Positions 34,271 to 63,250 of a DNA stretch of 64,000 bases are shown here, piece after piece. Position 1 is the stretch's first letter. Each line of letters starts with the position of its first letter. A model generated the notes under the pieces. That model saw only the letters and a list, made by a program, of their open reading frames with translations. It made no database searches and was not told the origin of the DNA. The position numbers were made by a program, and so were the translations under genes. Source of the stretch: Saccharothrix sp. (GTDB lineage Bacteria > Actinomycetota > Actinomycetes > Mycobacteriales > Pseudonocardiaceae); contig NZ_JAPSLK010000008.1 of assembly GCF_031180885.1 (NCBI RefSeq), positions 62,001-126,000 on the forward strand. The letters run 5' to 3'.

Positions 34271-35077
34271 TCAGTCGAACACGCAGATCCCGCCGTGGAC
34301 GACGACGGGCAGCCCGTCCGCTCCGCGCTGGACGTGGCCGACGATGCGCGCCTTGCGGTCGCCGAAGCTGGACGCGATGCCGACCTGGACGTCCATCGGC
34401 GTCCCGCGCCGGAGCAGGTCCCGCCACTCCTCGACGGTGGACAGCACGGACTCGAGCCGCGCCAGCGGGTCGGCCGGGGTGTCGGCGCCCGGCTCGACGC
34501 CGAACAGCCGGTGCAGCCCGGCGGAACCGACGAAGCGCCCGGTGAGCAGGTCCAGCGAGTACACGCCGACCCCGTCGTCCGCGAGCCCGTCGACCGCCGC
34601 CGCCAGGGCCAGCCGGTCCGCCACCGAGCCGGCGTCGCCGTGGGCCGGCGCACGGGTTCCCGCCAACCACCCTGGGAGCCAGGTGCACACGTACACCTCG
34701 CCGACGCGGGTGAGCCGCACCGCGATGGTCGCCGTGCGGCTCAGGTCGGTCAGGACGTCGGGCGCCGCGGCGGCCCGGTAGACCGGCTCTCCGGACTCCG
34801 CCGCCTCGGCGCACAGCCGCGTGAGCGCCGCGACGAGGTCGGCGGGCAGCAGATCGCCCAGCATGGCGCCGGTGAACCCGGCGGTGCGCAGGCCGAGGGC
34901 GTCACCCGCCGCGTCGTTGACGGCGATCACGGTGTAGCCGGGGCGGGCGTGCGGCCCGGTCACCTCGGTCCACACCAACGCGGGTTCCTGCATGAGCGCG
35001 ATGGCATCGCGCGGATCGGACGAGCCGGGGGCCCCGCCGATCGGCACCATTCCGGATTCCCGCCCTGGCAAGGCCAT
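34271..35077 (-). CDS. PAS-domain protein
   Basis: About 268 residues from ATG 35077; starts at 35095 and 35050 are also open. Residues about 20-125 form one PAS domain (VIAVNDAAGDALGL, FTGAMLGDLLPADLVAAL, VYRAAAAPDV) and residues 150-265 a second (LADDGVGVYSLDLLTGRFV, GLHRLFGVEPGAD, LESVLSTVEEWRDLLRRG, PMDVQVGIASSFGDRKARIV). No output domain follows; the gene stops after VVVHGGICVFD, and the G/C-only stretch lies 84 bases downstream. It may have lost a C-terminal output part, or act as a free sensor. Ligand unknown. Confidence 0.7.
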   Translation of the reverse strand: MALPGRESGMVPIGGAPGSSDPRDAIALMQEPALVWTEVTGPHARPGYTVIAVNDAAGDALGLRTAGFTGAMLGDLLPADLVAALTRLCAEAAESGEPVYRAAAAPDVLTDLSRTATIAVRLTRVGEVYVCTWLPGWLAGTRAPAHGDAGSVADRLALAAAVDGLADDGVGVYSLDLLTGRFVGSAGLHRLFGVEPGADTPADPLARLESVLSTVEEWRDLLRRGTPMDVQVGIASSFGDRKARIVGHVQRGADGLPVVVHGGICVFD

Positions 35078-35431: not shown

Positions 35432-36268
35432 CTACGCCGGCGCCACGAGGTCGACGGCGACGGCGCGGGACGAGACACCCGGTCCCCCGCCGCGCGGGTC
35501 CGGAGCGGTCGACGGGCCCGCCGTCAGCGGCACGCCCCGCCTGAGCTGAGCCACGAGGTCCGTCGCCTCGCGAGCCGCCTCGGCGCACCGGCAACAGGTG
35601 GACACGTGCTCCTGGACGCGCCGGCGCGCGGCGCGGCCGAGCCGGCCGCACACCCACGCGGCGAGGTTCTCGGCGGACCCGCGGCAGCGTTCGTCGACAC
35701 CGACTTTGACGTGCATCTGCACGTAGGCGACGCGAAGGGCCTCCCGGGCCCGGTAGGCCAGCGCGGAGACCGCGTTGGGCTGGATGTCCAGCGCCGCCGC
35801 GACTTCGGCGATCGGCCGCTTCTCGATCTCCAACTGCACCAGGACGGTGCGCCACCGCTCGGTGAGGGCGTCGAGCGCTCGTAATGCCAGGTCGGCGTCG
35901 AGCTTCTCGATCACCGGGTCGCCCGGGGCCACCTCCAGCGCCATCTCCGACGCCTGCGCCTGCCGGTCGACCAGGCGGTCCTCGGCGAGCTGCTTGTAGA
36001 AGGTCGTGCGGACCGTGGTGAGCAGGTACGAGCGGAAGGCGTTCGTCGGACCGCCGCCGGACAGGATGCGGTGCAGCACCTTGGTGAACGCTTCGGCCAC
36101 CACGTCGTCGGCGCCCTGCGCGCCACCCAACAACCGGTAAGCCAGGTTGTAGGCCGACGTGTAGTGCATCCGGTACAACTCGCCGAACGCATCGCGGTCG
36201 CCGGATCTGACGGCCCTCACGAGCGAGGCGTCACGACGCCCATCGCGCTCATCGAGGTGATCGGTCAT
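35432..36268 (-). CDS. ECF sigma factor with C-terminal zinc-finger-like tail
   Basis: 278 residues from ATG 36268 (MTDHLDERDGRRDASLVRAV). Sigma region 2 has FGELYRMHYTSAYNLAYRLL and DDVVAEAFTKVLHRIL; region 4 has LTERWRTVLVQLEIEKRPIA and DIQPNAVSALAYRAREALR. After region 4 about 95 extra residues include QEHVSTCCRCAEAA, the His-x3-Cys-x2-Cys pattern of ZAS anti-sigma domains, fused here to the sigma itself. No separate anti-sigma gene is adjacent. Such fused forms are thought to self-regulate; the target genes are unknown, perhaps the sensor genes nearby. Confidence 0.88.
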   Translation of the reverse strand: MTDHLDERDGRRDASLVRAVRSGDRDAFGELYRMHYTSAYNLAYRLLGGAQGADDVVAEAFTKVLHRILSGGGPTNAFRSYLLTTVRTTFYKQLAEDRLVDRQAQASEMALEVAPGDPVIEKLDADLALRALDALTERWRTVLVQLEIEKRPIAEVAAALDIQPNAVSALAYRAREALRVAYVQMHVKVGVDERCRGSAENLAAWVCGRLGRAARRRVQEHVSTCCRCAEAAREATDLVAQLRRGVPLTAGPSTAPDPRGGGPGVSSRAVAVDLVAPA

Positions 36269-36650: not shown

Positions 36651-37088
36651 TCAGCGATCGACATCGGACGAGCGCCCACCCAATACGAATTCGCCGACGC
36701 AATAGAGAGATGCCGGTCGCAATAGCTTCGGGGCGAGTGGGTGGCCGTGCGGAGGCAGCTCCCGCAATGCGGCTATCGCTTCGCGTATTTCGCCCGTGAA
36801 CTCCCACAGGACCACGGGCCGTCCCCGGCGCACGACGCTGTCCTCCGTGCGCAGCCGCACCACGGTGACCGCCTCCGGCGACCGCAAGGTGATCGTCTCG
36901 GTGACGGGCGGATCCTCCTTCATGCCGTAAAGGCACTCCTCCTCGCCGATGACCGCCGTGATGAACCGCCAGCCGGGGTCCTCGCGGATCAGGTCCGCAA
37001 GGGCGTCCAGACTGGGATAGGCGGCCAGCGCCGCCGCAACGCGGGGGTGTGTCACGCTCCACTTCCCACACTCGACCCGATCCTCCAC
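36651..37088 (-). CDS. Unknown protein, third gene of PTPS-like operon
   Basis: 145 residues from a GTG at 37088; an internal GTG at VTHPRVAAALAAYPSLDALA is an alternative. It is a mixed alpha/beta protein with a conserved-looking centre (REDPGWRFITAVIGEEECLY, ETITLRSPEAVTVVRLRTED, PVVLWEFTGEIREAIAALRE). GC falls towards its 3' end. It follows the PTPS-like gene by 19 bases on the same strand and is probably co-transcribed. The family is not recognised. Confidence 0.6.
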   Translation of the reverse strand: MEDRVECGKWSVTHPRVAAALAAYPSLDALADLIREDPGWRFITAVIGEEECLYGMKEDPPVTETITLRSPEAVTVVRLRTEDSVVRRGRPVVLWEFTGEIREAIAALRELPPHGHPLAPKLLRPASLYCVGEFVLGGRSSDVDR

Positions 37089-37107: not shown

Positions 37108-37518
37108 TCACCGCCGGCCGGGTCGGACTTCGACCAGCCGGCACCGAGCCCGCCCGCCGCGCACCGCGCTGACGGTGACGCTGTGGAGCACGTCGACCGC
37201 GACGGGGTCCAGGTGCCGCCGGCACCAGTCGACGAGGTGCTCGGTCAGCCTCGCGGGCGTCGGGTCGCCCTTGACGAGGTCGTTGAGGTGGGACCCCTCC
37301 AGCTCGCTGACGACGTAGTTCCGCAGCGGTTGCAGCATGACGGCGTCGGACGGCGCATCCGTCGGCGCCAGCTTCGACACCAGCAACACGACCTCGACCG
37401 ACCACTTGTGCATGTGGACGCCGTGGCACGCGTGCGAAGCCGGCAGACCGGCGATCTCGTGCGTCGCGACGAAGTCGTGCTGTTCCATGATCTCGTAGAC
37501 CATCGTCGCGATCAGCAC
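37108..37518 (-). CDS. 6-pyruvoyl-tetrahydropterin synthase/QueD-like protein
   Basis: 136 residues from GTG 37518, which overlaps the upstream stop (GTGCTGA). The metal site of the PTPS fold is recognisable: His in EQHDFVATHEIAG, then C-x3-H-x-H in HACHGVHMHKW, where the Cys is the usual catalytic residue and the two His bind zinc. The C-terminal half has LEGSHLNDLVKGDPTPARLTEH, equal to the LDH-LN-PT-EN-L pattern of the family. QueD makes carboxy-tetrahydropterin for 7-deazapurines; PTPS makes pyruvoyl-pterin. No other queuosine or folate gene is near, so the true role is open. Confidence 0.72.
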   Translation of the reverse strand: MLIATMVYEIMEQHDFVATHEIAGLPASHACHGVHMHKWSVEVVLLVSKLAPTDAPSDAVMLQPLRNYVVSELEGSHLNDLVKGDPTPARLTEHLVDWCRRHLDPVAVDVLHSVTVSAVRGGRARCRLVEVRPGRR

Positions 37519-37922
37519 GCCTCCAATGCGCGGGCGCGCCTGATGACCGCCGCCACGGTCTCCGGCTGGTACTCGTGCACGGCGACCACCTGCCGAGGCC
37601 GGGGCACGGCCGTGTTCGGCGCGGGTTCGGGGAACGCCGGGGGTGCGGTCTCCGCGAGCAGGTGGCCGCCGCCGAGCCGGTCGAGGTCGAACACCGCGTC
37701 CCGCAACGCGGCGCGCAGCCTGCCGACCTGGAGCGGTGAGAGGTACAGCAGTCCGATCGACGGGCACTCCAGCGTGACGTAGCCGGGGCCGAGCCTGACC
37801 TGCAGGAGCGAGTTGCGCCCCCGCTCGTCGAGGCATCTGGTGGCCGACTTGCTCGAGTCCCGCCGCCACCCCAGGCGCGACAGGACGGACAGCAGCGGAA
37901 CGCCTCGACGATGACGACTCAT
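37512..37922 (-). CDS. Unknown protein, first gene of PTPS-like operon
   Basis: 136 residues, ATG at 37922 with AGGAGG nine bases upstream. A basic start (MSRHRRGVPLLSVLSRLGWR) is followed by LLQVRLGPGYVTLECPSIG, SPLQVGRLRAALRDAVFDLD and a Pro-rich linker before VAVHEYQPETVAAVIRRARA. The centre (flat beta strands, then a helix) resembles small proteins in which a binding surface flanks a regulator, but no family was named. The stop overlaps the next GTG by 7 bases. Confidence 0.6.
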   Translation of the reverse strand: MSRHRRGVPLLSVLSRLGWRRDSSKSATRCLDERGRNSLLQVRLGPGYVTLECPSIGLLYLSPLQVGRLRAALRDAVFDLDRLGGGHLLAETAPPAFPEPAPNTAVPRPRQVVAVHEYQPETVAAVIRRARALEAC

Positions 37923-38172: not shown

Positions 38173-38898
38173 TCACCCGGACGGGGCGCGATGGCCCGGG
38201 GTCAGCGAGGCGGCGGCCTCCGCGGGGAGCAGCGAGAACTCGTACGCCTTGGCGACGGCGTGGGCGCGGTCGCGCGCACCCAGCTTGCGCAGGATGTGGG
38301 TGACGTGGCTGCGGACGGTCTCCGCCGAGATCGCCAGGCGCGCCGCGATCTGCACGGCGGTGCGCCCCTCCGCGATCAGCCGCAGGACCTCCAGCTCGCG
38401 CCGCGACAGCGGTCGGCCCGCCTCCTTCACCGGCACACCGGGCACCGCCGCGTTGCGGAACACCGGATCCACGAAACTGCCGGTCTCGACGGTCCGCCGG
38501 ATGGCGACGACCAGCCTGGCCGCGTCGGCCTCCACCGGGACGAGGGCACGTGCACCGTGCAGCCTCGCCCTGGCCGCCGCCTCGGGGGTCCTGCTCTCCG
38601 GCCCCAGCAGGGCCACCACGGTCAGGCGGCGGAACAGGTGGGTCAGCGTCTGGCAGATCCGCCACGACGGATCGCCCGCGGAGCAGATCAGCATGACGTC
38701 CGGGCGTGCCGACTCGCACAGGGCGATCGCGCCGCGCAGACCGTGCACGTGGTCGACCCACTCCAACACGGGATCGGCGGACACCACGCTCTGCACCCCG
38801 CAGGCGAGCAGGGGCAGCGTCCCCACCAGACCGACCCTGACCGTGGATTTGGCCGGGTCGTGCCACGCGCTCGTCGCCGGCTCGGGGATCGGCCTCAC
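38173..38898 (-). CDS. LuxR-type regulator with degenerate receiver domain
   Basis: 241 residues from GTG 38898, five bases after GGGGGAGG. The N-terminal 130 residues keep a receiver fold (VRVGLVGTLPLLACGVQSVV, ARPDVMLICSAGDPSWRICQ, LTVVALLGPESRTPEAAARA) but the phospho-accepting Asp position after PDVMLI is Cys and the acidic pair at the N-terminus is absent. The C-terminus is a full LuxR helix-turn-helix (LSRRELEVLRLIAEGRTAVQ, SAETVRSHVTHILRKLGARD). It should bind DNA without classical phosphorylation. The REC-only protein at 39778 is its close relative. Confidence 0.85.
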   Translation of the reverse strand: MRPIPEPATSAWHDPAKSTVRVGLVGTLPLLACGVQSVVSADPVLEWVDHVHGLRGAIALCESARPDVMLICSAGDPSWRICQTLTHLFRRLTVVALLGPESRTPEAAARARLHGARALVPVEADAARLVVAIRRTVETGSFVDPVFRNAAVPGVPVKEAGRPLSRRELEVLRLIAEGRTAVQIAARLAISAETVRSHVTHILRKLGARDRAHAVAKAYEFSLLPAEAAASLTPGHRAPSG

Positions 38899-38980
38899 CG
38901 CCGCCTCCCCCGCGCCGCGCACCGCGGAAGCCCGCGGTGACCACCCCGTCCGGGCGCCGTCCGGCTGAGCTGGATCCGGG

Positions 38981-39448
38981 TCACCGTCCCGACACGCCCA
39001 GGTTCGCCGACACCGTCACGAGGACGCGGTCGTCCGCGGGCCGGACCGGAACGGACACCTCGACACCGTGCAGCGGCACCGGGGTCGTGGCCGCGGTCGA
39101 CGTGGGCGCCGGGGTGGACGGGGCGGGCGCGGACGGCTGCCCCGCGGCCCGGCCGGCCACCGGCGGCGTGTGCTGGTCGGTGCAGGGCGCACCGACGAGG
39201 GTGCGAGGGCTGCTCGCGCTGCCGGCGGGGTTCGCGTCCGTCTTGGCGGTGAGCCCCGCGACGGCGCCCAGACCGCCGATCGCCTCCGGCGACGCGGGCC
39301 TGCGGTTCCAGTCGAACATCACGGAGCACGCGATCATCGCGACGGGCACGACGGTGAGCGTGGCGAGCGTGTGCCGGGTGCACCGGCGGCACGGCGTTCG
39401 GCCCCGCTTGTTCTCCAGTCGGTGCTTGCCCGTCTTGCGCAGCGACAT
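38981..39448 (-). CDS. Secreted or membrane-anchored Pro/Ala/Thr-rich protein
   Basis: 155 residues, ATG 39448 with GGGAGAAG upstream. A basic N-terminus with CRRCTRH is followed by a membrane helix (LATLTVVPVAMIACSVMF) and a long Pro/Ala/Thr-rich stretch (APAPSTPAPTSTAATT), ending in a short beta-like segment EVSVPVRPADDRVLVTVSAN. No family was recognised. It is divergent from the REC-only gene and co-directional with the REC-LuxR gene. Confidence 0.6.
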   Translation of the reverse strand: MSLRKTGKHRLENKRGRTPCRRCTRHTLATLTVVPVAMIACSVMFDWNRRPASPEAIGGLGAVAGLTAKTDANPAGSASSPRTLVGAPCTDQHTPPVAGRAAGQPSAPAPSTPAPTSTAATTPVPLHGVEVSVPVRPADDRVLVTVSANLGVSGR

Positions 39449-39777
39449 CCTGGCTTCTCCCTAGGGTGGATCAAGACCGCGGTCGCCCGCACCACTTCGC
39501 CGGCACGACCGTTCGACAAAGTCGTCTGACCCGGGAACGGCTTCCGCTTACGCACCGCCGGGGAAGTTCGCCCGACCAGAGGAGTCCGACGTCGTCGGCG
39601 ACCCGGCGCCCGCGCCGTGCCCACCCCCGTCCGGGTGAACTCGGTGTGCTCGCGCGTAAGCGCGCACGTGGTTGCGGATCTTCCGTCAGCGTCGCCGGTC
39701 CGGGCTCACGCCTCGCGACCGGCGTCGGCCGCGCGGGCACGCCGCCCGCGCCGACCCACCACCGGAAGGAACCTCCC
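39449..39777. promoter_or_regulatory. Divergent promoter region inside the receiver island
   Basis: About 330 bases between the starts of the secreted protein (39448, minus) and the REC-only gene (39778, plus). It should carry both promoters. No clear operator dyad was found by eye. Confidence 0.35.
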
Positions 39778-40254
39778 TTGAGTGCTGCGCTACCACCCTC
39801 GTTGCGGGTGTCACTGGTGAGTGCGACCCCCGCGCTGGAGAAGGGCGTCGCCCAGGCCCTGTCCCGGACCACCGACCTGCACTGGGTCGGCGCGGCCCCG
39901 GACGGGAGGTCCGCGGTGGAGTTCTGCCAGTCGGTCCAACCCGATGTCGTGCTGGTCGACTCGGTGGTCGACGTCAAGTGGGACTTGTGCCTGCTGCTCA
40001 CGTCGATGTTCCGCGACCTGGATGTCGTCGCCCTGTTGCGCCGGAGGTCGCTCAACCCGGTGTCGGCCGCGTGGGCTCGACTGCACGGCGCGAAGGGCGT
40101 CCTGGGCGTCGACGCGAAGCCGCACGACCTGCTCACCGCGATCCGCGCGACCGTGTCGGTCGGCCACTACGTGCATCCCGCGCTCGTGGCCGCGTCGCCC
40201 TCGGCGCCGCCACCGACGCCGGCTGCGCCGTCACCGACGCCGTTCCTCCGGTAG
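39778..40254 (+). CDS. Stand-alone receiver-like protein (paralogue of REC-LuxR protein)
   Basis: 158 residues from a TTG at 39778, seven bases after GGAAGGA. It matches the receiver part of the 38173 protein along its length (LRVSLVSATPALEKGVAQAL; QPDVVLVDSVVDVKWDLCLL; LDVVALLRRRSLNPVSAAWA; RLHGAKGVLGVDAKPHDLLT). It keeps Asp at the phospho-acceptor position, which the paralogue has lost, but also lacks the acidic pair. It ends in a Pro/Ala tail with no DNA-binding domain. It could modulate the paralogue by heterodimerisation (inference). Confidence 0.78.
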   Translation: MSAALPPSLRVSLVSATPALEKGVAQALSRTTDLHWVGAAPDGRSAVEFCQSVQPDVVLVDSVVDVKWDLCLLLTSMFRDLDVVALLRRRSLNPVSAAWARLHGAKGVLGVDAKPHDLLTAIRATVSVGHYVHPALVAASPSAPPPTPAAPSPTPFLR

Positions 40255-40424: not shown

Positions 40425-40673
40425 TCACGCGGTACCGGGGCCGACCAACGCGACGCGGTCCGCCACCACGCGGTGCGGCGCGACGCGGTCCGGCGCGACG
40501 CGGTTCGCCACCACGCCGTCCGGCGCGACGCCGTCCGGCGCGGCGGCCACCGCGAACCGGGGCGTGGGGAACTCCGTGGCGGCGCGCACCGGCCCGGGGC
40601 CGACCAGGGGCGCCGCCAGGGCGGGCGCCACCGCCGTCGACCGCACCCCCGTCGTCCGCCGCACCGGTGCCAT
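40425..40673 (-). CDS. Small protein with pentapeptide Val-repeats
   Basis: 82 residues. Start ATG 40673 has a strong GGGAGGAG site and the stop is followed at once by a 12-bp hairpin, which together make this the real frame among several open ones. The N-terminus is Arg/Ala-rich (VRRTTGVRSTAVAPALAAPL); residues about 45-75 are six five-residue units of the type A-P-D-G/R-V (APDGVAPDGV, VANRV, APDRV, APHRV, VADRV), encoded by 15-base DNA repeats at about 40448-40545. No family was recognised. A coiled beta or filament-like structure is possible. Confidence 0.65.
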   Translation of the reverse strand: MAPVRRTTGVRSTAVAPALAAPLVGPGPVRAATEFPTPRFAVAAAPDGVAPDGVVANRVAPDRVAPHRVVADRVALVGPGTA

Positions 40674-40735: not shown

Positions 40736-41254
40736 GTGCTCGAAGTAGCCGAACCAGCCGATTTGACCGGAACGTTCGTGGTGGCGCTCGGCGAACGTCA
40801 GGGAACGCTGTTCGTGATCTTCTACGACACCGCGCGCGATCGGGAGATCCAACTGGACGTCGACTCGGATTGGCAGTTGCGCACCGACGCCGGCGAGGCG
40901 TGCGTCTACCTCCACGGGCCCGGTCAGTGGCGCATCTCGTTCGCCGACCACGACGTGCGGGGCCCGTACCGCCACCGCCACCGGCCCGACCACCACCTGG
41001 AGGTGCTGTCGCTGGTCCGCGGCCTGACCGTCGAGCAGGCGCGGCTCGACAGCGATCTGGCGCTGCGGATCGGTTTCACCGCCGTGGGCGCCGAGCGGAT
41101 CAACCTGACCGTCCACGGGAAGTGCAAGCCGAACACCACCCACGTGCCCTGGCAGCTGACCTGGAACCAGCCCGCGTCCGCGACGAGCACGTTCGGCCGC
41201 GGCGGCCACGCGGACGTCCCGTGGTCCACCGCTCGGCACCGGACCGGTGGATGA
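40736..41254 (+). CDS. Unknown beta-rich protein in receiver island
   Basis: 172 residues from a GTG at 40736 (weak AAAGAA upstream). It reads LTGTFVVALGERQGTLFVIF, EIQLDVDSDWQLRTDAGEAC, LHGPGQWRISFADHDV, then VEQARLDSDLALRIGFTAVG and NLTVHGKCKPNTTHVPWQL. It could be a beta-sandwich binding protein; no family is known to me. The stop lies inside a 19-bp perfect hairpin (41231-41276), which supports the frame. Confidence 0.65.
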   Translation: MLEVAEPADLTGTFVVALGERQGTLFVIFYDTARDREIQLDVDSDWQLRTDAGEACVYLHGPGQWRISFADHDVRGPYRHRHRPDHHLEVLSLVRGLTVEQARLDSDLALRIGFTAVGAERINLTVHGKCKPNTTHVPWQLTWNQPASATSTFGRGGHADVPWSTARHRTGG

Positions 41255-54092: not shown

Positions 54093-55397
54093 TCACTTGG
54101 CGGCTTCGCCGGAACAACCGGGCCGTCGACTCGGGGACTCGACCTGCCGCAGCACTCGGCGGCGCAAGAGGATCCAGGATGCGAACGACAGTCCTGTGTA
54201 GAGGAACACCGTCCCGACCGCCACGCCGGTGGCGCCGGCCAGGTTCGCCGACAGCAGGTGACACCCCACCGAGGCGACGCAACTCACCAGGCCGAACGCG
54301 CCGGCGGCCTTGGTCCACCCGCCGCCGAGCAGGCCGAGACTGGCGACTTCGTACGGCGCGAAGCACAGTTCAGCGACGGCGAGGATCAGCAGCAGGTCCC
54401 GCGCGGCGGCGAACTCCGGGCCGAAGACCGGCACGATCCACAACCACCCCGCCAGCACGACGACGAGGTTGGCAGCAGCCGTCACCAGCACGGACAGCAG
54501 CAACCACGGGGCCATTTGGCCACGTCTGTTCCGCAGCCTGACATCGCGCATGAACAGCTGCCCCATCGCATGCGGGAACAGGCGGGGTATCTCGGCCAGG
54601 CTCGCCGCGAGCGCGAACACACCGACCGCGGCGGCGTCGACCGTGGCGCCCAGGACGTACCGGTCCGCGCGCAGGGCGATGGCCATGCCCAGGCCGAACC
54701 CGAGGGTCGGCAGGCCGGTGACGGCAAGCGCGCGGATTTCGTGGAACCGGGGCCGCGACAGGGACAGCAGCGTCGCCGCCCGGCACTTGGGGGCCAGGAA
54801 GATCCAGGTGACGAGCACACCGGCACCCTGGGCACCGAGCAGCGCCGCCCCGGTGGGCCACGCCACCGCGGCGGCGAGGAGTCCGGCCAGCCCGCCTGCC
54901 GTCATGACGGCCCCGAAGCCGGCCGCGCGCCGGAAGCCGCCGTCGGCGTACCAACCGTCGATGGTCTGGAAGTTGACGACCTGCGCCGCGGTGAACACGC
55001 CGACCGCGGCGAGGAAGCCGAAATCGGCGAGCGCGGGATCGACGACCGTCGCGGAGATCGCGGACACCGCCGCCGCGGCCACCGCCGCGAGGCAGGCGGC
55101 ACCGATCGTCCACCAGCTGTACGCGGACACGAGCCGGTGCCTGCCGGCGCCGGTGGCGGCCGGCAGGAGCAGTCGGAACGCCATCCTGGCACCGAAGCCG
55201 GCGACCAGCGCGACGACCGCCGCGATCGTCGTCCCCAGCACCATCACGCCTCGCTGCGCCGCTCCGAGGACGCACGTGGCCACCATCGCGGCGGCGGCGT
55301 TGGACACGAGTCGGAGCACGCCGGCGCCGGTCAGGTAGCCGATGTTGACCCGCCACCGGGAGCCCCCGACGTCCGGCAACCCGTTTGGTGCGGTCAT
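54093..55397 (-). CDS. Wzx-type polysaccharide flippase
   Basis: 434 residues with about 12-14 membrane helices, e.g. VSNAAAAMVATCVLGAAQRG, GVFTAAQVVNFQTIDGWYAD and IRALAVTGLPTLGFGLGMAI, plus RADRYVLGATVDAAAVGVFA, a pattern typical of MATE/Wzx-like export proteins. ATG 55397 is taken; a longer open frame upstream lacks the family start. It should move lipid-linked repeat units across the membrane for the operon's glycan. It is the last gene seen in the leftward glycan operon. Confidence 0.82.
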   Translation of the reverse strand: MTAPNGLPDVGGSRWRVNIGYLTGAGVLRLVSNAAAAMVATCVLGAAQRGVMVLGTTIAAVVALVAGFGARMAFRLLLPAATGAGRHRLVSAYSWWTIGAACLAAVAAAAVSAISATVVDPALADFGFLAAVGVFTAAQVVNFQTIDGWYADGGFRRAAGFGAVMTAGGLAGLLAAAVAWPTGAALLGAQGAGVLVTWIFLAPKCRAATLLSLSRPRFHEIRALAVTGLPTLGFGLGMAIALRADRYVLGATVDAAAVGVFALAASLAEIPRLFPHAMGQLFMRDVRLRNRRGQMAPWLLLSVLVTAAANLVVVLAGWLWIVPVFGPEFAAARDLLLILAVAELCFAPYEVASLGLLGGGWTKAAGAFGLVSCVASVGCHLLSANLAGATGVAVGTVFLYTGLSFASWILLRRRVLRQVESPSRRPGCSGEAAK

Positions 55398-55673
55398 CGG
55401 GTTCCCGCGCCGGAAACGCCGCCTGACGAACGCCGCGACGCCCACGCTCCCACATCCCTGATCCCTGTTCGTTGCCCGCGCATCCGGGGGACCACCGCGC
55501 TGGTGGCGACGCTCAGCCATCCGGCCCACCACAACCGCCGGACATCGACCGCCCGGGCCGGTCCGATCGTCGAACCGCCGCGACCTGACGATGACCCGGC
55601 GCAACGCGAGACCCGCCACGTCGGGCGCGGCCATCCGACCGAGGTGGCTCGGCCTCCGGTGTGACACCAACCG

Positions 55674-57083
55674 TCATCCGCTGTCCCCCGGGCCCGCGTC
55701 GCACCCGGCCGCCGACACCGAACCGCCCGTCCGGACACGGCCTGGCGAGGAACTGCCGACGCCCTGGACGCGAGTGCGGCAACGTTCACGCCGCTCGGAC
55801 AGATTCCAGGTTCGGCGGGCGATCACCCGATCTCCATCTTCCCTTGACCTGTCGTGCTTGTCGGTGGACACCTCGCCGTAGGCGGCAGTGAACCGATCCG
55901 AATCCGGCGGAGACCCCGAGGTGCGCGAACTCGACAGCAGATGACAGACGGCGAAGAACGCCGCCCCATAAGCGATCACCTTCATGAGTTGGAGACTGTC
56001 CCCGCGCAACGAGTACATGAGCGTCGCCACGAACAGCACGTTGAGGTAGGTCCACCAGTCGGAACGATCCGACCGGTTGACGATGAACCGGTGCACGAGT
56101 GTGATCAGGAAGAACACCACCGGGATCGCGGGCAGCCCGAAGTTGAGGTACGCCTCCCCGGTGAGCGAAAAGCCGTAACCCCCGCCCGATCCGGGCGCGT
56201 GCAGGCTGACCAGCCACTCGCCGAGGGACGGCGCGCTCTTCACGCTCAGCCAACTCGGCAGGACACCGAGCAGGTTGTCGAGATAGGTCGCACCACTGTA
56301 ATACGGCACGTAATGTGGCACGATATTCATGACGAAGGTGTCGACAAATGTGATGGACCCCTGGTTGAGCGCTTGTTCCATGCTGACGTCCTGGGACTGG
56401 CGAGCTGCCGCCAGAAAAGAGGCCAGGACGAAGAACCCCACGCCGGCGAGCACGATCCGCGTCGATCCGGCGCGGTTCTTCAGCAATTGGGCCTGAATCA
56501 GCAGGCTGAAGAAGATGAAGATGAAATCGCGCTCAGCCGTCGCCAGGCAGTACGCGAGGTACAGCCCGGCGTTCACCCAGTAGACGTTACGTGTCAGCCG
56601 GGTCCTCTTGGCGATGAAGTACATCGACAGGGCGAAAGCCTCCAGCAACAGGTAGCCCCCGTGCCACGGGCCCGCCAGCGCCAGCCGCTCCAACTTGTCG
56701 AGGTCGATCATGTCCGGGCCCTTGCTGACCACGACGAAGAGGGCGTACACGGCCAGGCCCGCCAACACCACGGGCAGCAGTTCGTACGCCTTCGCGGGCC
56801 GCGCGAGCCGCGCCTTGTCGAACGTCCGTCGTTGCGGCGCGACCAGGTCCCCGATCGCCATCGCGACGAGGGCGAGCGCGAACCCGGTCGACGCTCTCGG
56901 GATCTGCTCCGTCACGATTCCCTCGTACACGGAGGTGCCCACGACGAGGTTGATCAACGGGCCGAACGAGAAGAACACGAAGACGGCGGCGACGCTCACC
57001 AGGACGTTCCGCGTCCCGCCTCGCAGGTAGAGGCGGACAAGGACGGCCAGCGAAATGGCGAGGTTGATCAACACGACCGTCAT
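55674..57083 (-). CDS. Wzy/EpsG-like polysaccharide polymerase
   Basis: 469 residues from ATG 57083 (MTVVLINLAISLAVLVRLYL). About ten membrane helices with a large outer loop (YYSGATYLDNLLGVLPSWLS, GGGYGFSLTGEAYLNFGLPA) and short conserved pieces (ATAERDFIFIFFSLLIQAQL). This is the usual form of O-antigen/EPS polymerases, which have little sequence conservation. The last 80 residues are charged and unstructured. It lies between the acetyltransferase and the flippase, fitting a Wzx/Wzy-dependent pathway. Confidence 0.75.
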   Translation of the reverse strand: MTVVLINLAISLAVLVRLYLRGGTRNVLVSVAAVFVFFSFGPLINLVVGTSVYEGIVTEQIPRASTGFALALVAMAIGDLVAPQRRTFDKARLARPAKAYELLPVVLAGLAVYALFVVVSKGPDMIDLDKLERLALAGPWHGGYLLLEAFALSMYFIAKRTRLTRNVYWVNAGLYLAYCLATAERDFIFIFFSLLIQAQLLKNRAGSTRIVLAGVGFFVLASFLAAARQSQDVSMEQALNQGSITFVDTFVMNIVPHYVPYYSGATYLDNLLGVLPSWLSVKSAPSLGEWLVSLHAPGSGGGYGFSLTGEAYLNFGLPAIPVVFFLITLVHRFIVNRSDRSDWWTYLNVLFVATLMYSLRGDSLQLMKVIAYGAAFFAVCHLLSSSRTSGSPPDSDRFTAAYGEVSTDKHDRSREDGDRVIARRTWNLSERRERCRTRVQGVGSSSPGRVRTGGSVSAAGCDAGPGDSG

Positions 57084-57234
57084 GCCTTGTGTGGTCAACC
57101 GAACCTCTTGTACCCGTCCGTGGCCTCAACGGCAGAGGCGCATACCGACATGTGGTTACTCCGTGATCGTTCCTGCGATGAGGTGCGCATTGCGACGTGG
57201 TGGTCGATTCGGGGTGGAGCAGGGCCTGGCCGCG

Positions 57235-57861
57235 CTAGCGGACGCGGGCGGCCAGCGGCGCGGCGGGTGAGCCGATCACGACCACCTCGCCCGGCACATC
57301 GCGAGTCACCACGGCCCCCGCACCCACCACGGCGCCCACGCCGACCGTGCGGCCTTGCAGTACGACGGCACCGGAACCCACTACGGCACCTTCCGCCAGG
57401 GTGACGTTCCCGGCGACGTTGGCACCGGGCATGACCGTCACGTGGTCCGCGAGCGTGGTGTCGTGCCCCACCGTCGCGTTGTAGTGCACCTGGCAGTGGG
57501 AGCCGATGGTGACGCCGCTCGACACCATCACGTTGGCCTGGACGATCGCGCCCGGACCGATGGTGGTCTCCGGGCAGACCACCGCTCGGGGGTGGACGAG
57601 ATTGGTCGGCCGCAACCCGCGCGCGTCCAGCAGTCGCGAGAGCCGCACCCGCGCCGTGGGGGAGGCGATCGCCACGACGTACGCCGCGCCGGACACCGCG
57701 TCGCCCGGCCTGCGCACGTCGTGGCCGCGCACGACCTGCCCCGCGGCGGAATCGTCGAGGAACGCGATGACCTCGCGACCGAGTGCCATGCAGATGTCCA
57801 GCGCTTCGCGGCCCGCACCACCCGCACCGACGACGTAGACAGCTGCCCCTTTATGCGCCAT
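57235..57861 (-). CDS. NeuD/PglD-type sugar O/N-acetyltransferase
   Basis: 208 residues from ATG 57861. Residues 1-75 form a small Rossmann-like domain (AVYVVGAGGAGREALDICMA) that binds the sugar nucleotide; the rest is a left-handed beta-helix with hexapeptide repeats (TTIGPGAIVQANVMVSSGVT, SHCQVHYNATVGHDTTLADH with the catalytic His, GAVVGAGAVVTRDVPGEVVV). Relatives acetylate UDP-4-amino sugars (PglD) or sialic acids (NeuD). Next to a DegT aminotransferase and a priming transferase, a bacillosamine-like sugar is plausible. Confidence 0.88.
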   Translation of the reverse strand: MAHKGAAVYVVGAGGAGREALDICMALGREVIAFLDDSAAGQVVRGHDVRRPGDAVSGAAYVVAIASPTARVRLSRLLDARGLRPTNLVHPRAVVCPETTIGPGAIVQANVMVSSGVTIGSHCQVHYNATVGHDTTLADHVTVMPGANVAGNVTLAEGAVVGSGAVVLQGRTVGVGAVVGAGAVVTRDVPGEVVVIGSPAAPLAARVR

Positions 57862-57871
57862 GCGACTCCGT

Positions 57872-58504
57872 TCAAGGTTGGGGAGGGATCGGGAAGCCGG
57901 GGTTGGTTCCGCCCGCACCGACGATGCCGCGCGGCCGGACGAGGTGGCCGATGGTGCGCAGGACGATGCGGAGATCGACTCGCCAGCTCCGGTTCTCGAT
58001 GTACCACAGGTCGAGTTCGATGCGCTCGGGCCAGCTCAGCGCGTTGCGGCCGCACACCTGGGCCCAACCGGTGAGGCCGGGGCGCACCACGAGGCGTCCC
58101 CTTTGGCGGGGGCTGTAGTGGCGCACCTGCTCGGGCAGGGTCGGCCTTGGGCCGATGATGCTCATCTCGCCGCGCAGGACGTTCACCAGCTGGGGCAGTT
58201 CGTCCAGGCTCATGCGGCGCAGCGCGCTCCCCAGCCGGGTCTCGCGTTGGCAGTCGGGCTGGCCGGGTCGGTCCGGTTCGCGCATGGTGCGGAACTTGAG
58301 GATGGTGAACTCCTTCCCGTGCAGCCCGCAGCGGCGTTGGCGGAACAGCACTGGCGAGCCGAGCCGCCAACGGACCAGCCCGGCGACCACGGCGATCACC
58401 GGCGCGAGAGCCACCAGGAAGGCCACCGCGAGCACGATGTCGAGTGCCCGTCGGACGCGATCACGGGAGATGTCGGTCCCCCGGGAACGGGAAGGACCGG
58501 TCAT
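57872..58504 (-). CDS. Priming sugar transferase (undecaprenyl-phosphate glycosyl-1-phosphate transferase)
   Basis: 210 residues, one N-terminal membrane helix (ALDIVLAVAFLVALAPVIAV). The catalytic part has FRQRRCGLHGKEFTILKFRT, RRMSLDELPQLVNVLRGEMS, IIGPRPTLPEQV and RPGLTGWAQVCGRN, all typical of the PglC/WbaP family. It moves sugar-1-phosphate from a nucleotide onto undecaprenyl phosphate to start the repeat unit. ATG overlaps the aminotransferase stop (ATGA), and the acetyltransferase follows 10 bases later. Being short, it is of the monotopic PglC type. Confidence 0.93.
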   Translation of the reverse strand: MTGPSRSRGTDISRDRVRRALDIVLAVAFLVALAPVIAVVAGLVRWRLGSPVLFRQRRCGLHGKEFTILKFRTMREPDRPGQPDCQRETRLGSALRRMSLDELPQLVNVLRGEMSIIGPRPTLPEQVRHYSPRQRGRLVVRPGLTGWAQVCGRNALSWPERIELDLWYIENRSWRVDLRIVLRTIGHLVRPRGIVGAGGTNPGFPIPPQP

Positions 58505-59706
58505 GCCGTCGCCTCCCCCAGCACCTTGGTCAGCGCGGTCGCCGTGTCGACCATGTCCGCGGATCCGAGCGTCGGGTGGACGAGCAACTCCAGTGATGTC
58601 CGCCCGAGCCGTGCCGCCACGGGTAGCTTGCTCGGTGTTCCGGGTACGGCGTCGAAAGCGCGTTCGCGGTAGATCTCGGTGCACCCGCCTTGCCGGCAGG
58701 GGACGCCTTCCGCGCGGACGGCGTCGACGACCCGGTCCCTGGTCCACCCGGCGGCGAGGCGTTCGATGCGCAGGCGCACAGGGAACCTGTAGTAGGCGTG
58801 CTCGACACCCGCGGGTGGCTCGGTGAGCTCGACCGCGGGTTGGCCGCGCAACACCTCCCGCAACACCGCCGCGTTGGCTCGGCGTTGTCCCACCCAGCCG
58901 TCGAGCTTGCGCAGGTGGTTGCGTCCGATCGCGGCCTGCAGCTCGGTCATGCGGGCGTTCGTGCCGAACTTCTCGTGCAGCCAGCGGAACCCGGACGCGT
59001 GGTCGATCCGGTGGACGGCCGACCAGCTCTTGCCGTGGTCCTTCAACTCCCAGCACCGGCGCCACAGCTCGTCGTCCGACGTCGTGACCGCCCCTCCTTC
59101 ACCGGCCGTGGTGAGGATCTTGTCCTGGCAGAACGACCAAGAGGCGATGTCGCCGAGGCTGCCCACCGGACGTCCCCGGTGGACGGCTCCGTGCGCCTGG
59201 GCGCAGTCCTCCACGACCCGCAGGTCGTGGTGTCGAGCGAGTTCGAGGACGGGATCGACGTCGGCCGGGTGCCCGGCCAGGTGTACCACGACGATCGCGG
59301 CGGCGCGGTCGGTGATCGCCGCCTCGACGGTGTCCGCGGTGAGGCACCCGCTGACGGGGTCCACGTCCACGACGACGGGGCGCGCTCCGCATGAGACGAC
59401 GGCGGAGGCGGTCGCGATGAAGGTGGCGGCGGGGACGATCACGTCGTCGCCGCGGCCGACCCCGATGGCCCGCAGCGCCAGTTCGAGTGCCACGGTGCCG
59501 TTGGACAGGGCGACGGCGTGGCGGGTCCCCACGGCGGCGGCGAGCTCGGCTTCGAAAGCTCTGCCGTGGTCGCCGGTCCAGTAGTTGACCCGGCCCGAGG
59601 CCAGCACCGCCCGTGCGGTGTCGAGGTCGTCCTCGTCGAAGTACGGCCACGGTGGCACGGGCGCGGTCCGCACCGGCGTCCCGCCGTCGATGGCGAGCCG
59701 GCTCAT
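58501..59706 (-). CDS. DegT/DnrJ/EryC1 family PLP-dependent sugar aminotransferase
   Basis: 401 residues. PLP-binding features: ALSNGTVALELALRAIGVGR, ATFIATASAVVSCGARPVVV, VVEDCAQAHGAVHRGR, then the catalytic Lys in SWSFCQDKILTTAGEGG. The C-terminal segment has KFGTNARMTELQAAIGRNHL. It adds an amino group to a keto-sugar nucleotide, most likely the 4-keto sugar used by the acetyltransferase and priming transferase next to it. No dehydratase that makes such a keto sugar is in the window. Coupled by ATGA overlaps on both sides. Confidence 0.93.
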   Translation of the reverse strand: MSRLAIDGGTPVRTAPVPPWPYFDEDDLDTARAVLASGRVNYWTGDHGRAFEAELAAAVGTRHAVALSNGTVALELALRAIGVGRGDDVIVPAATFIATASAVVSCGARPVVVDVDPVSGCLTADTVEAAITDRAAAIVVVHLAGHPADVDPVLELARHHDLRVVEDCAQAHGAVHRGRPVGSLGDIASWSFCQDKILTTAGEGGAVTTSDDELWRRCWELKDHGKSWSAVHRIDHASGFRWLHEKFGTNARMTELQAAIGRNHLRKLDGWVGQRRANAAVLREVLRGQPAVELTEPPAGVEHAYYRFPVRLRIERLAAGWTRDRVVDAVRAEGVPCRQGGCTEIYRERAFDAVPGTPSKLPVAARLGRTSLELLVHPTLGSADMVDTATALTKVLGEATA

Positions 59707-60827
59707 CGGAGACCTCCATGCGGTTGGCGTGCGGTCCACACAGTCCTCCACCACTGGTCGTCCGAGGAGATCGCGAACGGGGAGAAGCGGACGCCCTCAC
59801 TGATCAGCGCGCGCTCGCAGTCCGGCGTCTCCGCCAAGGCCAGCGCGCTGTACGCCCACACCAGCGGTCCGGCCTCCAGCGGCAGCACGGTGATCCCGCA
59901 CAACTGCGTCGCGAGTTCGCGCAACCCTGGCAGGTCGGACGCGAGCACGGGCACGCCCGCGGCCAGGGCTTCCAGGACGACGTTGGGCAGCCCCTCCCGG
60001 CGCGACGGCAGCAACAGCACATCGGTCGCCGCGAGCACGTCCTCCACCCGATCGGTGTGGCCGATCAGGTGCACCGACCTGTCCGACGCGACCGTCGGCG
60101 AGACCGCCTCCAGGTCGGCTGTGCCACCGGGTCCGACGAAGGTCAGACCGACGTCGGGGTGCAGCCGTCGCGCCTCGGCGTGCACCTCCAGCAGGAACGC
60201 GCGGTTCTTCTCCGGCGAAGCGCGTCCGACGTGGGTCATCATCACCGGACCGCCGTCCGCGCCCCGGGACGTCCGGCACACTGAGGCGAACCGGTCGACG
60301 TCGACCTTGTTCGGCACCACGCTGAACCGGGCGTCGCCCTCGGGCGGTGCGGCGAAGGCCAGTGCCGCTCGGGTGACACCGAACACACTGGTGGCCGCCC
60401 GGCGCAACAACGCGCGCAGTACAGCGCGCCGTGCGCGGCACGCCATGGTGTCGGGGCGTCCATCGCCTTCGCTTCTCATTTGGGCTATCCGCACGTCGAC
60501 ACCGGCGAACGCCGCGACGGTGAGCACGAGACCGCTCACGAGACTCACATGCGACTCGACCACGTCCGGCCTCAGCGCGCGCAGCAGACGCCACAACCGG
60601 AAAGGGAACGTCCACTTAGGACTCAACGGGCACCGGTGGATCCGCGCCCCCGCCGCTTCGAACTGCGTGGCGAGCAGACCTTCGCGCTCCCCGAGGGTCA
60701 CGAAAGTCAGGCGGGCCTGGTCGGGCGGAATGGTGCGGCACTGCCTCAGCGCGATCGTCTCGACGCCACCGCGATCGAGTGTGCCGAGGACGTGGACCAC
60801 CTCGACCGGAGTGGCGCCGTCGCTCAC
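59703..60827 (-). CDS. GT4-type glycosyltransferase
   Basis: 374 residues from GTG 60827, with GGGGAGGG upstream. It opens VEVVHVLGTLDRGGVETIAL and carries the GT-B acceptor half, then VMMTHVGRASPEKNRAFLLE, VGLTFVGPGGTADLEAVSPT and REGLPNVVLEALAAGVPVLA with the E-x7-E motif. It elongates the lipid-linked oligosaccharide. Overlaps the aminotransferase start and the fused glycosyltransferase stop, so it is translated as part of the chain. Donor and linkage unknown. Confidence 0.9.
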   Translation of the reverse strand: MSDGATPVEVVHVLGTLDRGGVETIALRQCRTIPPDQARLTFVTLGEREGLLATQFEAAGARIHRCPLSPKWTFPFRLWRLLRALRPDVVESHVSLVSGLVLTVAAFAGVDVRIAQMRSEGDGRPDTMACRARRAVLRALLRRAATSVFGVTRAALAFAAPPEGDARFSVVPNKVDVDRFASVCRTSRGADGGPVMMTHVGRASPEKNRAFLLEVHAEARRLHPDVGLTFVGPGGTADLEAVSPTVASDRSVHLIGHTDRVEDVLAATDVLLLPSRREGLPNVVLEALAAGVPVLASDLPGLRELATQLCGITVLPLEAGPLVWAYSALALAETPDCERALISEGVRFSPFAISSDDQWWRTVWTARQPHGGLR

Positions 60828-63250
60828 GTGGCCCTCCCCTGTCGTGCTCCGCGCACCTGCGCGAGCCACGCCGAGAACTGCTCGTCCAGCAGCGACGACT
60901 CGAAGGTGCGGGCGAGATCGAGGTTGCGGCGCGACTGGCATTCCCACGCCTGCGCATCGGTCAGCAGCCACCGCATGACCCGGGCCAGCGCCTCGTGGTC
61001 GTCGGCGTCCACGAGGCAACGGGGGTCGAGCAGTTCCGGGATCCCGCCCACCCTCGTCCCCACGGCGGGCAGCGCACGGGCCATCGCCTCGACCAGCGCC
61101 CGGGGCAGCCCTTCGGTGCGGGACGGCATCACGAACAGGTTCGCGGCGTCCAGCAACTCGATGACGGACCGCCGGTCGTGGACCGTGCCGGTGAAACGCA
61201 CGCGCTCGGCCAAGCCGAGCGACGACGCGAGGTCGACCAGTTCGCCGTGTTGCCTGCCTCCGCCCACCACGACCGCCCGCACGTCGAGCCCTTCGCCCGT
61301 CAGCCGGTGCAGCGCTCGGAGAAGCACATCGTGCCCCTTGTAGTGCTGTTCATGGCTGCCCACGGCGATGACGTCGAACGACGACGGCGACCACACGCGG
61401 GGGGACTCGACGAGCGACTCGGACCTGATGACGACGCCGGCCAGTCCGATCGTCCGCGCCCCCGCAGCGGCGGGATAGCGCTGCTGCAACGTGGTTTGGG
61501 TGACGTACCGCACCGCCGACGCGCCGCGCACGACCCACCGCATCTGCGCCCGTGCCGACCGCGCCGCGGCCCGGCCCGCCCGCCCGAGCGTCCCCGAGGC
61601 CAGCACGTCGTACGGGTCGCCGACCACCTCGACCGCATAGCTGCGGCGCAGCGCCATGCACACCAGCGCGGCGACGGACCCGATCGCACCGGGCATCCGC
61701 AGGACGACCACTTCCGCATCGGCGACCTCGCGGGTCACGGCGGGCACCAACCGCGGCAGCGCGCGCACGAACCCGGCGGCGCCGCGGTAGTCCGGCAACG
61801 GCCGCACCGTGGTCCCGTTCCCTTCCACCGGGCACCCCGCGCCGCCGGGTTCGCCGCCCGCCCGGGCGACGATCCGCAACCGGTCACCGCCTGCGGTGTA
61901 CCTCGCCCAAGCCTCGCGCCCGCTGACGAACTCACTGGCCGCCCACCGCCCGTCGCGGCCGCGCCCGAACCGCGCGTCGAGGAACAGGCTGACGCGTCGA
62001 CCACCTGCCTCACCACCTGTGGCGGAACGCCGGACAGCCACACCCGCGGCGTCCTCGATGACGTCAGCGACCGCGACCGCCGCGCGTGCGCTGTCGAAGC
62101 GGCGAAGCACGTGTTCGCGCACGTGGTCACCGCGATCGCGCAACCTGCCGGCCGCGTGCTCGGTGTACGCGTCGTCCAGAGCGGCGGCCAGGGCATCGGG
62201 GTCGTCCGGCGGCACGATCCAGCACGACCGGGTGTCGACGGCTTCCGGCAGCGCCCCGACATCGCTGACCACGCTGGGGAGGCCCATCGCGCCGGCCTCC
62301 AGTGCGGCGCCGTGGTTGTCCGACAACGATGGTGACACGCTGAGGTCCGCGGCGGCGTAGTACGGCCGCACGTCCTCGACGGTGCCCAGCCACGTCACGG
62401 AATCGTCGCCGTCGACCCGGAACCGCGCGATCAGTTCCCGGCGGTGTCGTTCGCCCGCTTCGTCGAACCCGCCGCCGACGAGCAACAGGTGGCTGTTCGG
62501 GTGGGTCGCGCGGAACCGCTGCCACGCCTTCAGGAGCACGTCGTGGCCCTTGATGCCGCGCCCCGCGTGGAGGACCCTCTTGGGCGCGTACACCAAGGCG
62601 ACCATGATCACCACGAAGTCGTAGGCGCCGGCATCGATCGCCGCGCGCACCGTGGTGCGATCGGTGCCGCTCATCGGCCGGAACTGCCTGGTGTCGACAC
62701 CGTAGGGGATCACCGGCGTCTGCTCGGCCGCGCGGCCGAGTTCCCGGTAACGCCGGCCGGTGAACTCGCTGCCGCTGATCGTGACGGTGTCCAGGCGCAC
62801 CAGGAGCCGTTCGACGGCCCGGATGACCCCGGACTCCATGTGGAGGGGGCCCGCGACCATGTGCACGCGCGCCGCGCTCAGCCCCGTGGAGGCGAGGCGG
62901 GCCGCCAGCGCGGACGCGTAGAGGTGGTAGTGCACCACGTCCGGCGCCAGCTCACGGAGCCGGCGGCGCAGCTCCACGAGGCCGGTGAGGGTGCGGATCG
63001 AGGGTCGGAAGCGGAAGTCGAAAGGGCTGTCCACCACGGGCACACCGCGCCGGGTGAACTCGGTGCGCAGTCGGCCGTCACCCGGCGGCAGCACCGCCAC
63101 GACCCGATGTCCGCGCGCGGTCAGCGCATCGACGTGCGGGATCGTCCACATGGCTCCCTGGTTGGTCTTGAGCACGAGGACGACCCGCAATTGTCGCGTA
63201 CCGGCGGACGCGGGCACACCGCGTGCGGTCGCTTGGCGCGAACGGGTCAC
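60824..63250 (-). CDS. Tandem-fused GT4 glycosyltransferase
   Basis: 808 residues in one frame from GTG 63250 (GGAG upstream), about twice the normal size. Residues about 20-400 are a GT-B enzyme (LKTNQGAMWTIPHVDALTAR, KGHDVLLKAWQRFRATHPNS, LLVGGGFDEAG, NHGAALEAGAMGLPSVVSDV); residues about 415-805 are a second, with YKGHDVLLRALHRLTGEGLD, VVVGGGRQHGELVDLASSLG and EGLPRALVEAMARALPAVGT. No stop lies between. An internal GTG at 62041 could give a free second half. Each half should add one sugar. Overlaps the dehydrogenase stop by GTGA. Confidence 0.85.
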   Translation of the reverse strand: MTRSRQATARGVPASAGTRQLRVVLVLKTNQGAMWTIPHVDALTARGHRVVAVLPPGDGRLRTEFTRRGVPVVDSPFDFRFRPSIRTLTGLVELRRRLRELAPDVVHYHLYASALAARLASTGLSAARVHMVAGPLHMESGVIRAVERLLVRLDTVTISGSEFTGRRYRELGRAAEQTPVIPYGVDTRQFRPMSGTDRTTVRAAIDAGAYDFVVIMVALVYAPKRVLHAGRGIKGHDVLLKAWQRFRATHPNSHLLLVGGGFDEAGERHRRELIARFRVDGDDSVTWLGTVEDVRPYYAAADLSVSPSLSDNHGAALEAGAMGLPSVVSDVGALPEAVDTRSCWIVPPDDPDALAAALDDAYTEHAAGRLRDRGDHVREHVLRRFDSARAAVAVADVIEDAAGVAVRRSATGGEAGGRRVSLFLDARFGRGRDGRWAASEFVSGREAWARYTAGGDRLRIVARAGGEPGGAGCPVEGNGTTVRPLPDYRGAAGFVRALPRLVPAVTREVADAEVVVLRMPGAIGSVAALVCMALRRSYAVEVVGDPYDVLASGTLGRAGRAAARSARAQMRWVVRGASAVRYVTQTTLQQRYPAAAGARTIGLAGVVIRSESLVESPRVWSPSSFDVIAVGSHEQHYKGHDVLLRALHRLTGEGLDVRAVVVGGGRQHGELVDLASSLGLAERVRFTGTVHDRRSVIELLDAANLFVMPSRTEGLPRALVEAMARALPAVGTRVGGIPELLDPRCLVDADDHEALARVMRWLLTDAQAWECQSRRNLDLARTFESSLLDEQFSAWLAQVRGARQGRAT

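Follow-up and report, generated by a model that had tools for sequence, protein, structure and literature searches.

Genes of the S/A locus

The window, by which we mean the whole 64-kb stretch of DNA analysed here, contains two related genes on opposite strands. Gene A (38173–38922, minus strand, 249 aa) encodes a LuxR/NarL-type regulator composed of a pseudo-receiver and a GerE helix-turn-helix (HTH), and gene S (39778–40254, plus strand, 158 aa) encodes a free-standing pseudo-receiver that begins with a TTG codon. Genes were called with a simple custom caller rather than a standard annotator. The preliminary description had placed the LuxR gene at 38173–38898; translation could just as well begin in frame at 38898, and the longer form up to 38922 was used throughout. 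The N-terminus of S lines up with the starts of its six orthologues. The alternative GTG start at 39808, favoured by the simple gene caller, would trim the first strand of the protein. BLASTP aligned S with A without gaps over 127 residues, 55 of which are identical (43%, E 3e-24). This bears out the previously claimed alignment of about 125 residues, and the shared pieces RLHGA and VVALL both fall within it. When the 9.46-Mb genome was searched for paralogues of S, A came first with an E value of 1.5e-25 and the runner-up reached 3.8e-11. The likeness of S and A is thus far above general receiver similarity.

Profile searches recognised the DNA-binding half of A (Pfam GerE, E 3.7e-19) and did not match the PF00072 receiver in A even at E 1. 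For S nothing confident was returned: its top Pfam match, Response_reg, scored 15.5 bits, under the cut-off of 30.2, and NCBIfam matches to NarL-type regulators were weak and far under their cut-offs. By Pfam and by an HTH-motif pattern, S has no DNA-binding domain. Among the relatives described below, which carry a second LuxR copy called B, the GerE HTH was detected in 11/11 A/B rows scanned, out of 13 known, and Response_reg was matched at E 0.1 by two of the seven S and four of the 11 A/B rows. The preliminary description had proposed structure prediction as a check. AlphaFold2, run on two-row alignments, modelled S as a receiver fold (mean pLDDT 81.1) and A as a receiver plus an HTH (mean pLDDT 72.8), and the best solved relatives of these models in Foldseek include DesR, RcsB, NarL and LiaR. 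For full-length A both domains were matched in a differing arrangement, with an rmsd of 7–18 over both. S and A are therefore both predicted to adopt NarL-type receiver folds.

We searched 249 genomes of the bacterial family. Besides the window's own, six genomes, all from a single second genus, contained S-like genes, and these are 50–53% identical to S. Within the two genera their occurrence is sporadic, at 1/25 and 6/24 genomes (E 1e-18). A profile built on all seven S sequences, which separates S rows (E 1e-68 or below) from A and B (E 1e-31 or below) and from the next match (1e-26), yielded no further S lineage in samples of 397 order and 394 class genomes that overlap the family's, with the best 10–15 candidates per genome scored. 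In a further scan of genome contigs the sole match was to Pseudomonas over 29 residues, which we attribute to chance. Genes of the A/B type, scored with a profile built from 11 of the 13 known sequences, reached 367–420 bits in those same seven of the 249 genomes only, and the best other regulator reached 225 bits. The earlier proposal had been made to depend on the two genes occurring together, and a search for the pair in other actinomycetes had been suggested. When the best 11–15 candidates of each genome were considered, seven of the 249 family genomes had both S-type and A/B-type genes, and the remaining 242 had neither type; therefore, in this sample there is no A/B without S and no S without A. 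The divergent S/A pair was found in all six genomes of the second genus.

Gene order is also conserved. In 7/7 genomes S is divergent to a row of genes consisting of a small gene, A, a gene for a short protein, a PTPS-like gene, a homologue of 36651–37088 and an ECF sigma factor gene. In the window the small gene (38981–39448, minus strand) lies 5′ of A on the same strand; its 155-aa product has no Pfam match, one hydrophobic stretch and a Pro/Ala/Thr-rich composition (by eye). A small gene stands at the same position before A in 6/6 relatives, with no sequence similarity detected to the one in the window. The short protein 3′ of A (37512–37922, minus strand) has a homologue after A in five of the six relatives, being missed by the gene caller in G170, and after B in two. 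Next come the PTPS/QueD-like protein (37108–37518, minus strand; Pfam PTPS E 1.8e-8, above cut-off), a conserved protein of unassigned family (36651–37088, minus strand) and the ECF-type sigma factor (35432–36268, minus strand; NCBIfam sigma70-ECF above cut-off, Pfam Sigma70_r2 and r4_2). Strong PTPS-like matches (E 2e-44 or better) are confined to precisely these seven of the 249 genomes; the others gave three weak matches. At its C-terminus the sigma factor is extended by a stretch whose His/Cys pattern (by eye) resembles a built-in zinc-binding segment of the anti-sigma type.

A protein with a weak PAS match (34271–35050, minus strand; PAS_4 E 0.001, under the Pfam cut-off) follows, and its homologue in the relatives belongs to the B-ECF module. 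In all six relatives B has an ECF factor gene of its own after it, and the window is without B. Five relatives have about 16–27 kb between their two LuxR-ECF modules; in G170 the modules are on two different contigs. Beyond S, a protein without a Pfam match at E 0.01 (40778–41254, plus strand) has homologues, 39–42% identical, near S in five of the six relatives. Between these two genes, just 3′ of S, we observed a tandem array (40449–40542) of 6.3 copies of a 15-bp unit, with a higher-order unit of 45 bp (91% matches). The relatives have a very large protein gene convergent to S, for which no homologue was called in the window. It encodes 1,812–1,875 aa in five (L040:7366–12957, L043:7841–13459, L045:7787–13225, L048:493–6120 and L049:5076–10565) and 798 aa as called in L041; the one protein scanned contains DUF11/DUF7927 domains.

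A set of polysaccharide genes (54093–63927, minus strand) encodes a Wzy-like polymerase, a sugar transferase, a hexapeptide transferase, a DegT aminotransferase and glycosyltransferases. Several of them recur in the relatives' locus, where the Wzy-like polymerase has no match. The stretches from G007, G140, G156 and G238 hold a sugar transferase, a DegT aminotransferase, a hexapeptide transferase and glycosyltransferases homologous to those at 54–64 kb of the window; of these, the G193 stretch has glycosyltransferases only, and the contigs fetched for G170 show none of them. The G140 locus additionally encodes a Wzz/GNVR-type chain-length protein and a low-molecular-weight phosphatase. These polysaccharide genes, which lie in one gene region with S and A, probably build a surface sugar coat.

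Ancestry, active site and constraint

To place S among its relatives, we built a maximum-likelihood tree of 47 receiver domains that included 23 HTH-bearing relatives, hand-picked from those fetched. S (100/99), A (97/84) and B (97/92) each formed a clade, as did A + B (99/92) and S + A + B (99/94), all inside an HTH-bearing regulator family that, with A/B included, is matched in 109/249 genomes at E 1e-45. The rooted tree makes S the sister of A + B, with a root that is not beyond doubt, being set by four canonical receiver rows whose long branches were flagged by the program. The preliminary description had spoken of a duplicated receiver. On this tree S is instead an old sister lineage of A + B without the HTH, and not a recent copy of A.

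Scored by pattern, the HTH motif was absent at nine S loci and present at all 63 others (72 matches from 73 loci, among which some places were counted twice and a few are ordinary response regulators). Downstream of S no HTH remnant was found in 7/7 genomes, the two matches obtained being at chance level (E 1.8 and 4.9). Because S is one clade within a family whose other examined members have the HTH, a single old loss is the simplest explanation. Most simply, then, the HTH would have been lost once on the S branch, before the copies of the two genera parted.

We compared the phosphorylation sites with those of four canonical receivers from the same genome, all of which carry D, D, D, T and K at the five positions. 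In S of the window the acid pair reads Ser-Ala, the acceptor is Asp61 and Val replaces Lys; A of the window has Gly-Thr, Cys and Val, respectively. The free copy is thus the one of the two that keeps the acceptor Asp, as had been claimed. That neither protein has the acidic pocket is correct for the two genes of the window and holds only in part for the family, in which one pocket acid is retained as Asp in 6/7 A and as Glu in 6/6 B proteins. The second acid, the Lys and the aligned Thr/Ser, the last read from a column that is possibly shifted by one, are absent in 7/7 S, 7/7 A and 6/6 B. The first pocket acid is Ser in all seven S proteins, and the Lys is replaced by Val or Leu. The acceptor Asp is kept in 7/7 S and lacking in 7/7 A and 6/6 B, where Thr, Ser or Cys takes its place (13/13). 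Decay would have taken opposite courses in the two proteins: gone from S are the HTH and the pocket acid, and from A/B the acceptor Asp. In the 23 HTH-bearing relatives the first pocket position and the acceptor are both Asp; none has the second acid, and all have Arg in place of Lys.

The retained Asp, present in every S protein, raises the question of whether S is a working single-domain response regulator phosphorylated at this residue. We consider this highly improbable and rejected it. The acid pair and the Lys are lost in 7/7 S proteins and no Ser/Thr stands at the aligned T position, in that possibly shifted column, so that the DD/D/T/K set of a canonical single-domain response regulator is incomplete. 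Since the Asp is also kept in 23/23 HTH-bearing relatives, all without the Lys, it is most simply an ancestral leftover. In addition, none of the 41 matches in the genome to HisKA_3, the one kinase family searched, lies on the contig of the window (C96). By this search A is an orphan regulator without an adjoining histidine kinase.

We calculated dN/dS by the Nei–Gojobori method, in which dS is probably underestimated at this G+C content. Among the five closest relatives the ratios were 0.30–0.43 for S and 0.12–0.26 for A; pairs with G193 gave 0.37–0.53 and 0.26–0.32, and the window-to-relative pairs, which are the least reliable, gave 0.50–0.68 and 0.43–0.57. By these values S is under purifying selection, and S and A are both constrained, S the less so; its constraint is moderate, because S evolves faster than A. 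That faster evolution, together with the missing HTH, is what would be expected if S were a functionless, decaying remnant of a LuxR-type gene. Such decay is nevertheless very unlikely and was likewise rejected, as S is open in 7/7 genomes of two genera, its dN/dS is below 1 in 21/21 pairs, it has its own conserved motif upstream and 53 of 159 columns are invariant among the seven proteins. Since the same pair adjoins in a second genus, S is probably a working partner or brake and not a broken gene.

The divergent control region and its twin motif

The preliminary description had S and the LuxR gene flanking a divergent promoter. The units on opposite strands do diverge, but the small gene at 38981–39448 intervenes between A and the divergent region, and the divergent promoters must therefore lie within 39449–39777. 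In this interval we identified two opposed copies of a conserved motif. One, GGYGAACT-N12-CGTAAGCG (39544–39573, minus strand), faces the small gene and A, and the other, GGYGAACT-N13-CGTAAGCG (39633–39663, plus strand), faces S. Two opposed copies are present in the S/A divergent region of 7/7 genomes (the window and loci L040, L041, L043, L045, L048 and L049). S and A are therefore probably co-controlled. The two copies are separated by 4 bp in each of the six relatives versus 59 bp in the window; as the pair is kept despite this difference in a region that otherwise aligns poorly, the motif appears to be under constraint.

The strict motif occurs twice in the 64-kb window and was absent from 100 shuffles. 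In the relatives the pattern GAAC-N12..15-CGTAA was found nine times in 12 loci (207 kb), each time in the divergent region. Together with the window this pattern covers 11 of the 14 motif copies, and the other three are more degenerate (the S-facing copies of G007 and G156 and the A-facing copy of G193). A weight matrix was constructed from 13 sites, with the S-facing sites of G007 and G156, which are off the strict pattern, taken from the alignment. The building sites scored 21–33 and the fourteenth copy, which was held out, scored 25.2; the next best site in all loci reached 20.0 and is intragenic, and the best of five window shuffles reached 16.0. Genome-wide, the strict motif gave four exact matches versus two in the control, one of those outside the window (on C51) falling inside a called 630-aa gene and the fourth being on C43, and a looser pattern gave 21 matches in the six relatives versus 14 in the control, with nine of the 21 at the S/A locus. 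Matches outside this locus are thus at chance level. The twin motif does not occur before the polysaccharide genes, and no comparable site precedes the other genes of the loci.

The twin motif has a loose likeness to promoters of ECF type, which have the form GAAC...CGTA with a gap of 16–17. The gap between AAC and CGTA in the twin motif is 13–14, shorter than in those promoters, and with no comparable site elsewhere in the loci we discarded a regulon governed by a sigma factor. The motif may instead serve as a promoter found in this region only, which the local ECF factor might use, or A may bind it as an operator.

A possible pairing of S with A

S and A are a real, conserved pair that has not decayed; its control region is defined and its output plausible. 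We would put at roughly one in two the probability that S acts on A by pairing with it and so restrains or retunes it. In the mechanism we propose, the two would be regulators that have long formed a pair and that control a locus for surface polysaccharide. A would bind DNA through its LuxR-type HTH, and its receiver half, without the usual phosphate uptake, would be a pairing or sensing module; S would be this module minus the HTH. Both would be produced together from the single divergent control region with its two opposed motif copies. Using the receiver fold, S would then pair with A (possibly also with B where the other genus has it) and would limit or retarget the DNA binding of A as a stoichiometric, phosphorylation-independent brake or modulator. 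We infer co-expression, S–A pairing, inhibition and control of the polysaccharide genes by S and A; against the last of these stands the absence of the motif before the polysaccharide genes.

If S pairs with A, its residues at an interface might resemble those of A. Over the columns at which A and B differ, we counted those where S shares the residue of A rather than that of B. In alpha4-beta5-alpha5 the ratio was 6:2 versus 5:8 elsewhere, which is not significant (Fisher p 0.18), and for alpha4 alone it was 3:1 versus 8:9 (p 0.59). We therefore dropped an A-like interface signature as evidence. The raw S–A identity of 61% in alpha4 is only suggestive. Helix alpha1 is a common dimer face of the NarL family; S and A have little of it in common, at 31% identity versus 77% between A and B, which speaks against their pairing.

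S could equally serve a partner other than A, such as the PAS-like protein, the sigma factor of ECF type, the product of the small gene 5′ of A or some unlinked protein; it would then be an adaptor or sensor tied to A by shared transcription only. The locus does encode an ECF sigma factor, a PAS-like protein and a conserved small protein, the interface test was negative, and FrzS is a pseudo-receiver that binds an unrelated protein (PMC12632262). On the other side, S is of the same family as the receiver of A and is divergent to the A unit in 7/7 genomes, and A/B is never found without S among the 249 genomes (best 11–15 candidates per genome). We regard another partner as possible, though rather doubtful.

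For the pairing of S with A, precedents come from HTH-less homologues of DNA-binding regulators. PMC11655674 describes TrlR, CerN and FleT as acting on TraR, CerM and FleQ, respectively, and quotes 31% identity between CerN and CerM. As in TrlR/TraR and in CerN/CerM, where CerN diverged anciently, an HTH-less homologue stands in one circuit with a DNA-binding one (PMC11655674). S resembles TrlR and CerN in being an HTH-less homologue of a linked HTH regulator. It differs in lacking an autoinducer-binding domain: the module shared in TrlR/TraR and CerN/CerM binds acyl-homoserine lactones, whereas S and A share a degenerate receiver with a predicted receiver fold. FleT and FleQ belong to a protein family different from that of S and A. 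The likeness here is that the HTH-less homologue modulates the DNA-binding one via hetero-oligomers (PMC11655674). By these analogies, titration or capping of A by S would fit and has precedents.

FleT, which alters the affinity of FleQ for its sites (PMC11655674), also raises the reading in which S assists A and does not antagonise it, whether as a positive co-regulator or as a subunit that confers specificity, similar to FleT or RcsA. The strong co-conservation of S with an intact A would agree with this, as would the pairing of BldM with WhiI, which activates (PMC4125116). Against it, S is without a DNA-binding domain, unlike WhiI or RcsA, and the HTH-less LuxR-type proteins TrlR and CerN antagonise their partners (PMC11655674). 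We hold positive co-regulation to be unlikely.

Other comparisons concern the response-regulator family itself. BldM and WhiI each carry an HTH, which S lacks. They share with S and A the character of orphan, atypical response regulators; according to PMC4125116 they heterodimerise and are thought to act independently of phosphorylation, the pocket being degenerate in WhiI and conserved in BldM. The same text gives RcsA/RcsB as a LuxR-HTH regulator with an auxiliary partner on exopolysaccharide or capsule genes (PMC4125116). The S/A pair likewise combines a LuxR-HTH regulator with an auxiliary partner, and it differs in that the auxiliary RcsA possesses an HTH, while RcsB is phosphorylated in the typical manner. 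FrzS and other bacterial pseudo-receivers (PsR) have, like S and A, the receiver fold minus the catalytic set. A 2025 review (PMC12632262) regards their switching as a mystery, and the terms "single-domain", "stand-alone", "paralog" and "titrat" are all absent from its main text. Among the titles and opening lines of abstracts listed from one open-access library, none described a free-standing pseudo-receiver coupled to a paralogue that bears an HTH.

Our fuller reading is that a dedicated, ancient HTH-less pseudo-receiver sets the activity of its LuxR-type sister by stoichiometric, phosphorylation-free pairing, both being made together from twin opposed promoters, and thereby gates a surface-polysaccharide locus. 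This we put forward tentatively. Id proteins and plant microproteins are comparison models for the HTH-less S, and we suggest, with equal caution, that S may be their bacterial counterpart on a receiver fold. A conserved pair with one bare pseudo-receiver is a clean natural test in which a pairing role is separable from DNA binding, with a defined control region and a measurable likely output, the surface polysaccharide. If S blocks A, the strategy of HTH-less paralogues would be extended from quorum sensing to the response-regulator family.

The wider group of HTH-bearing pseudo-receiver regulators in the bacterial family, in which Arg replaces the Lys, also shows an altered DSxLDP loop. No S/A-type locus was seen by eye around three of these relatives (L108, L109 and L110; 12–13 kb each). 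Two of the regulators (L108:5879–6583 and L110:6377–7009) lie just upstream of a gene of 612–616 aa, which is presumably acyl-CoA-dehydrogenase-like.
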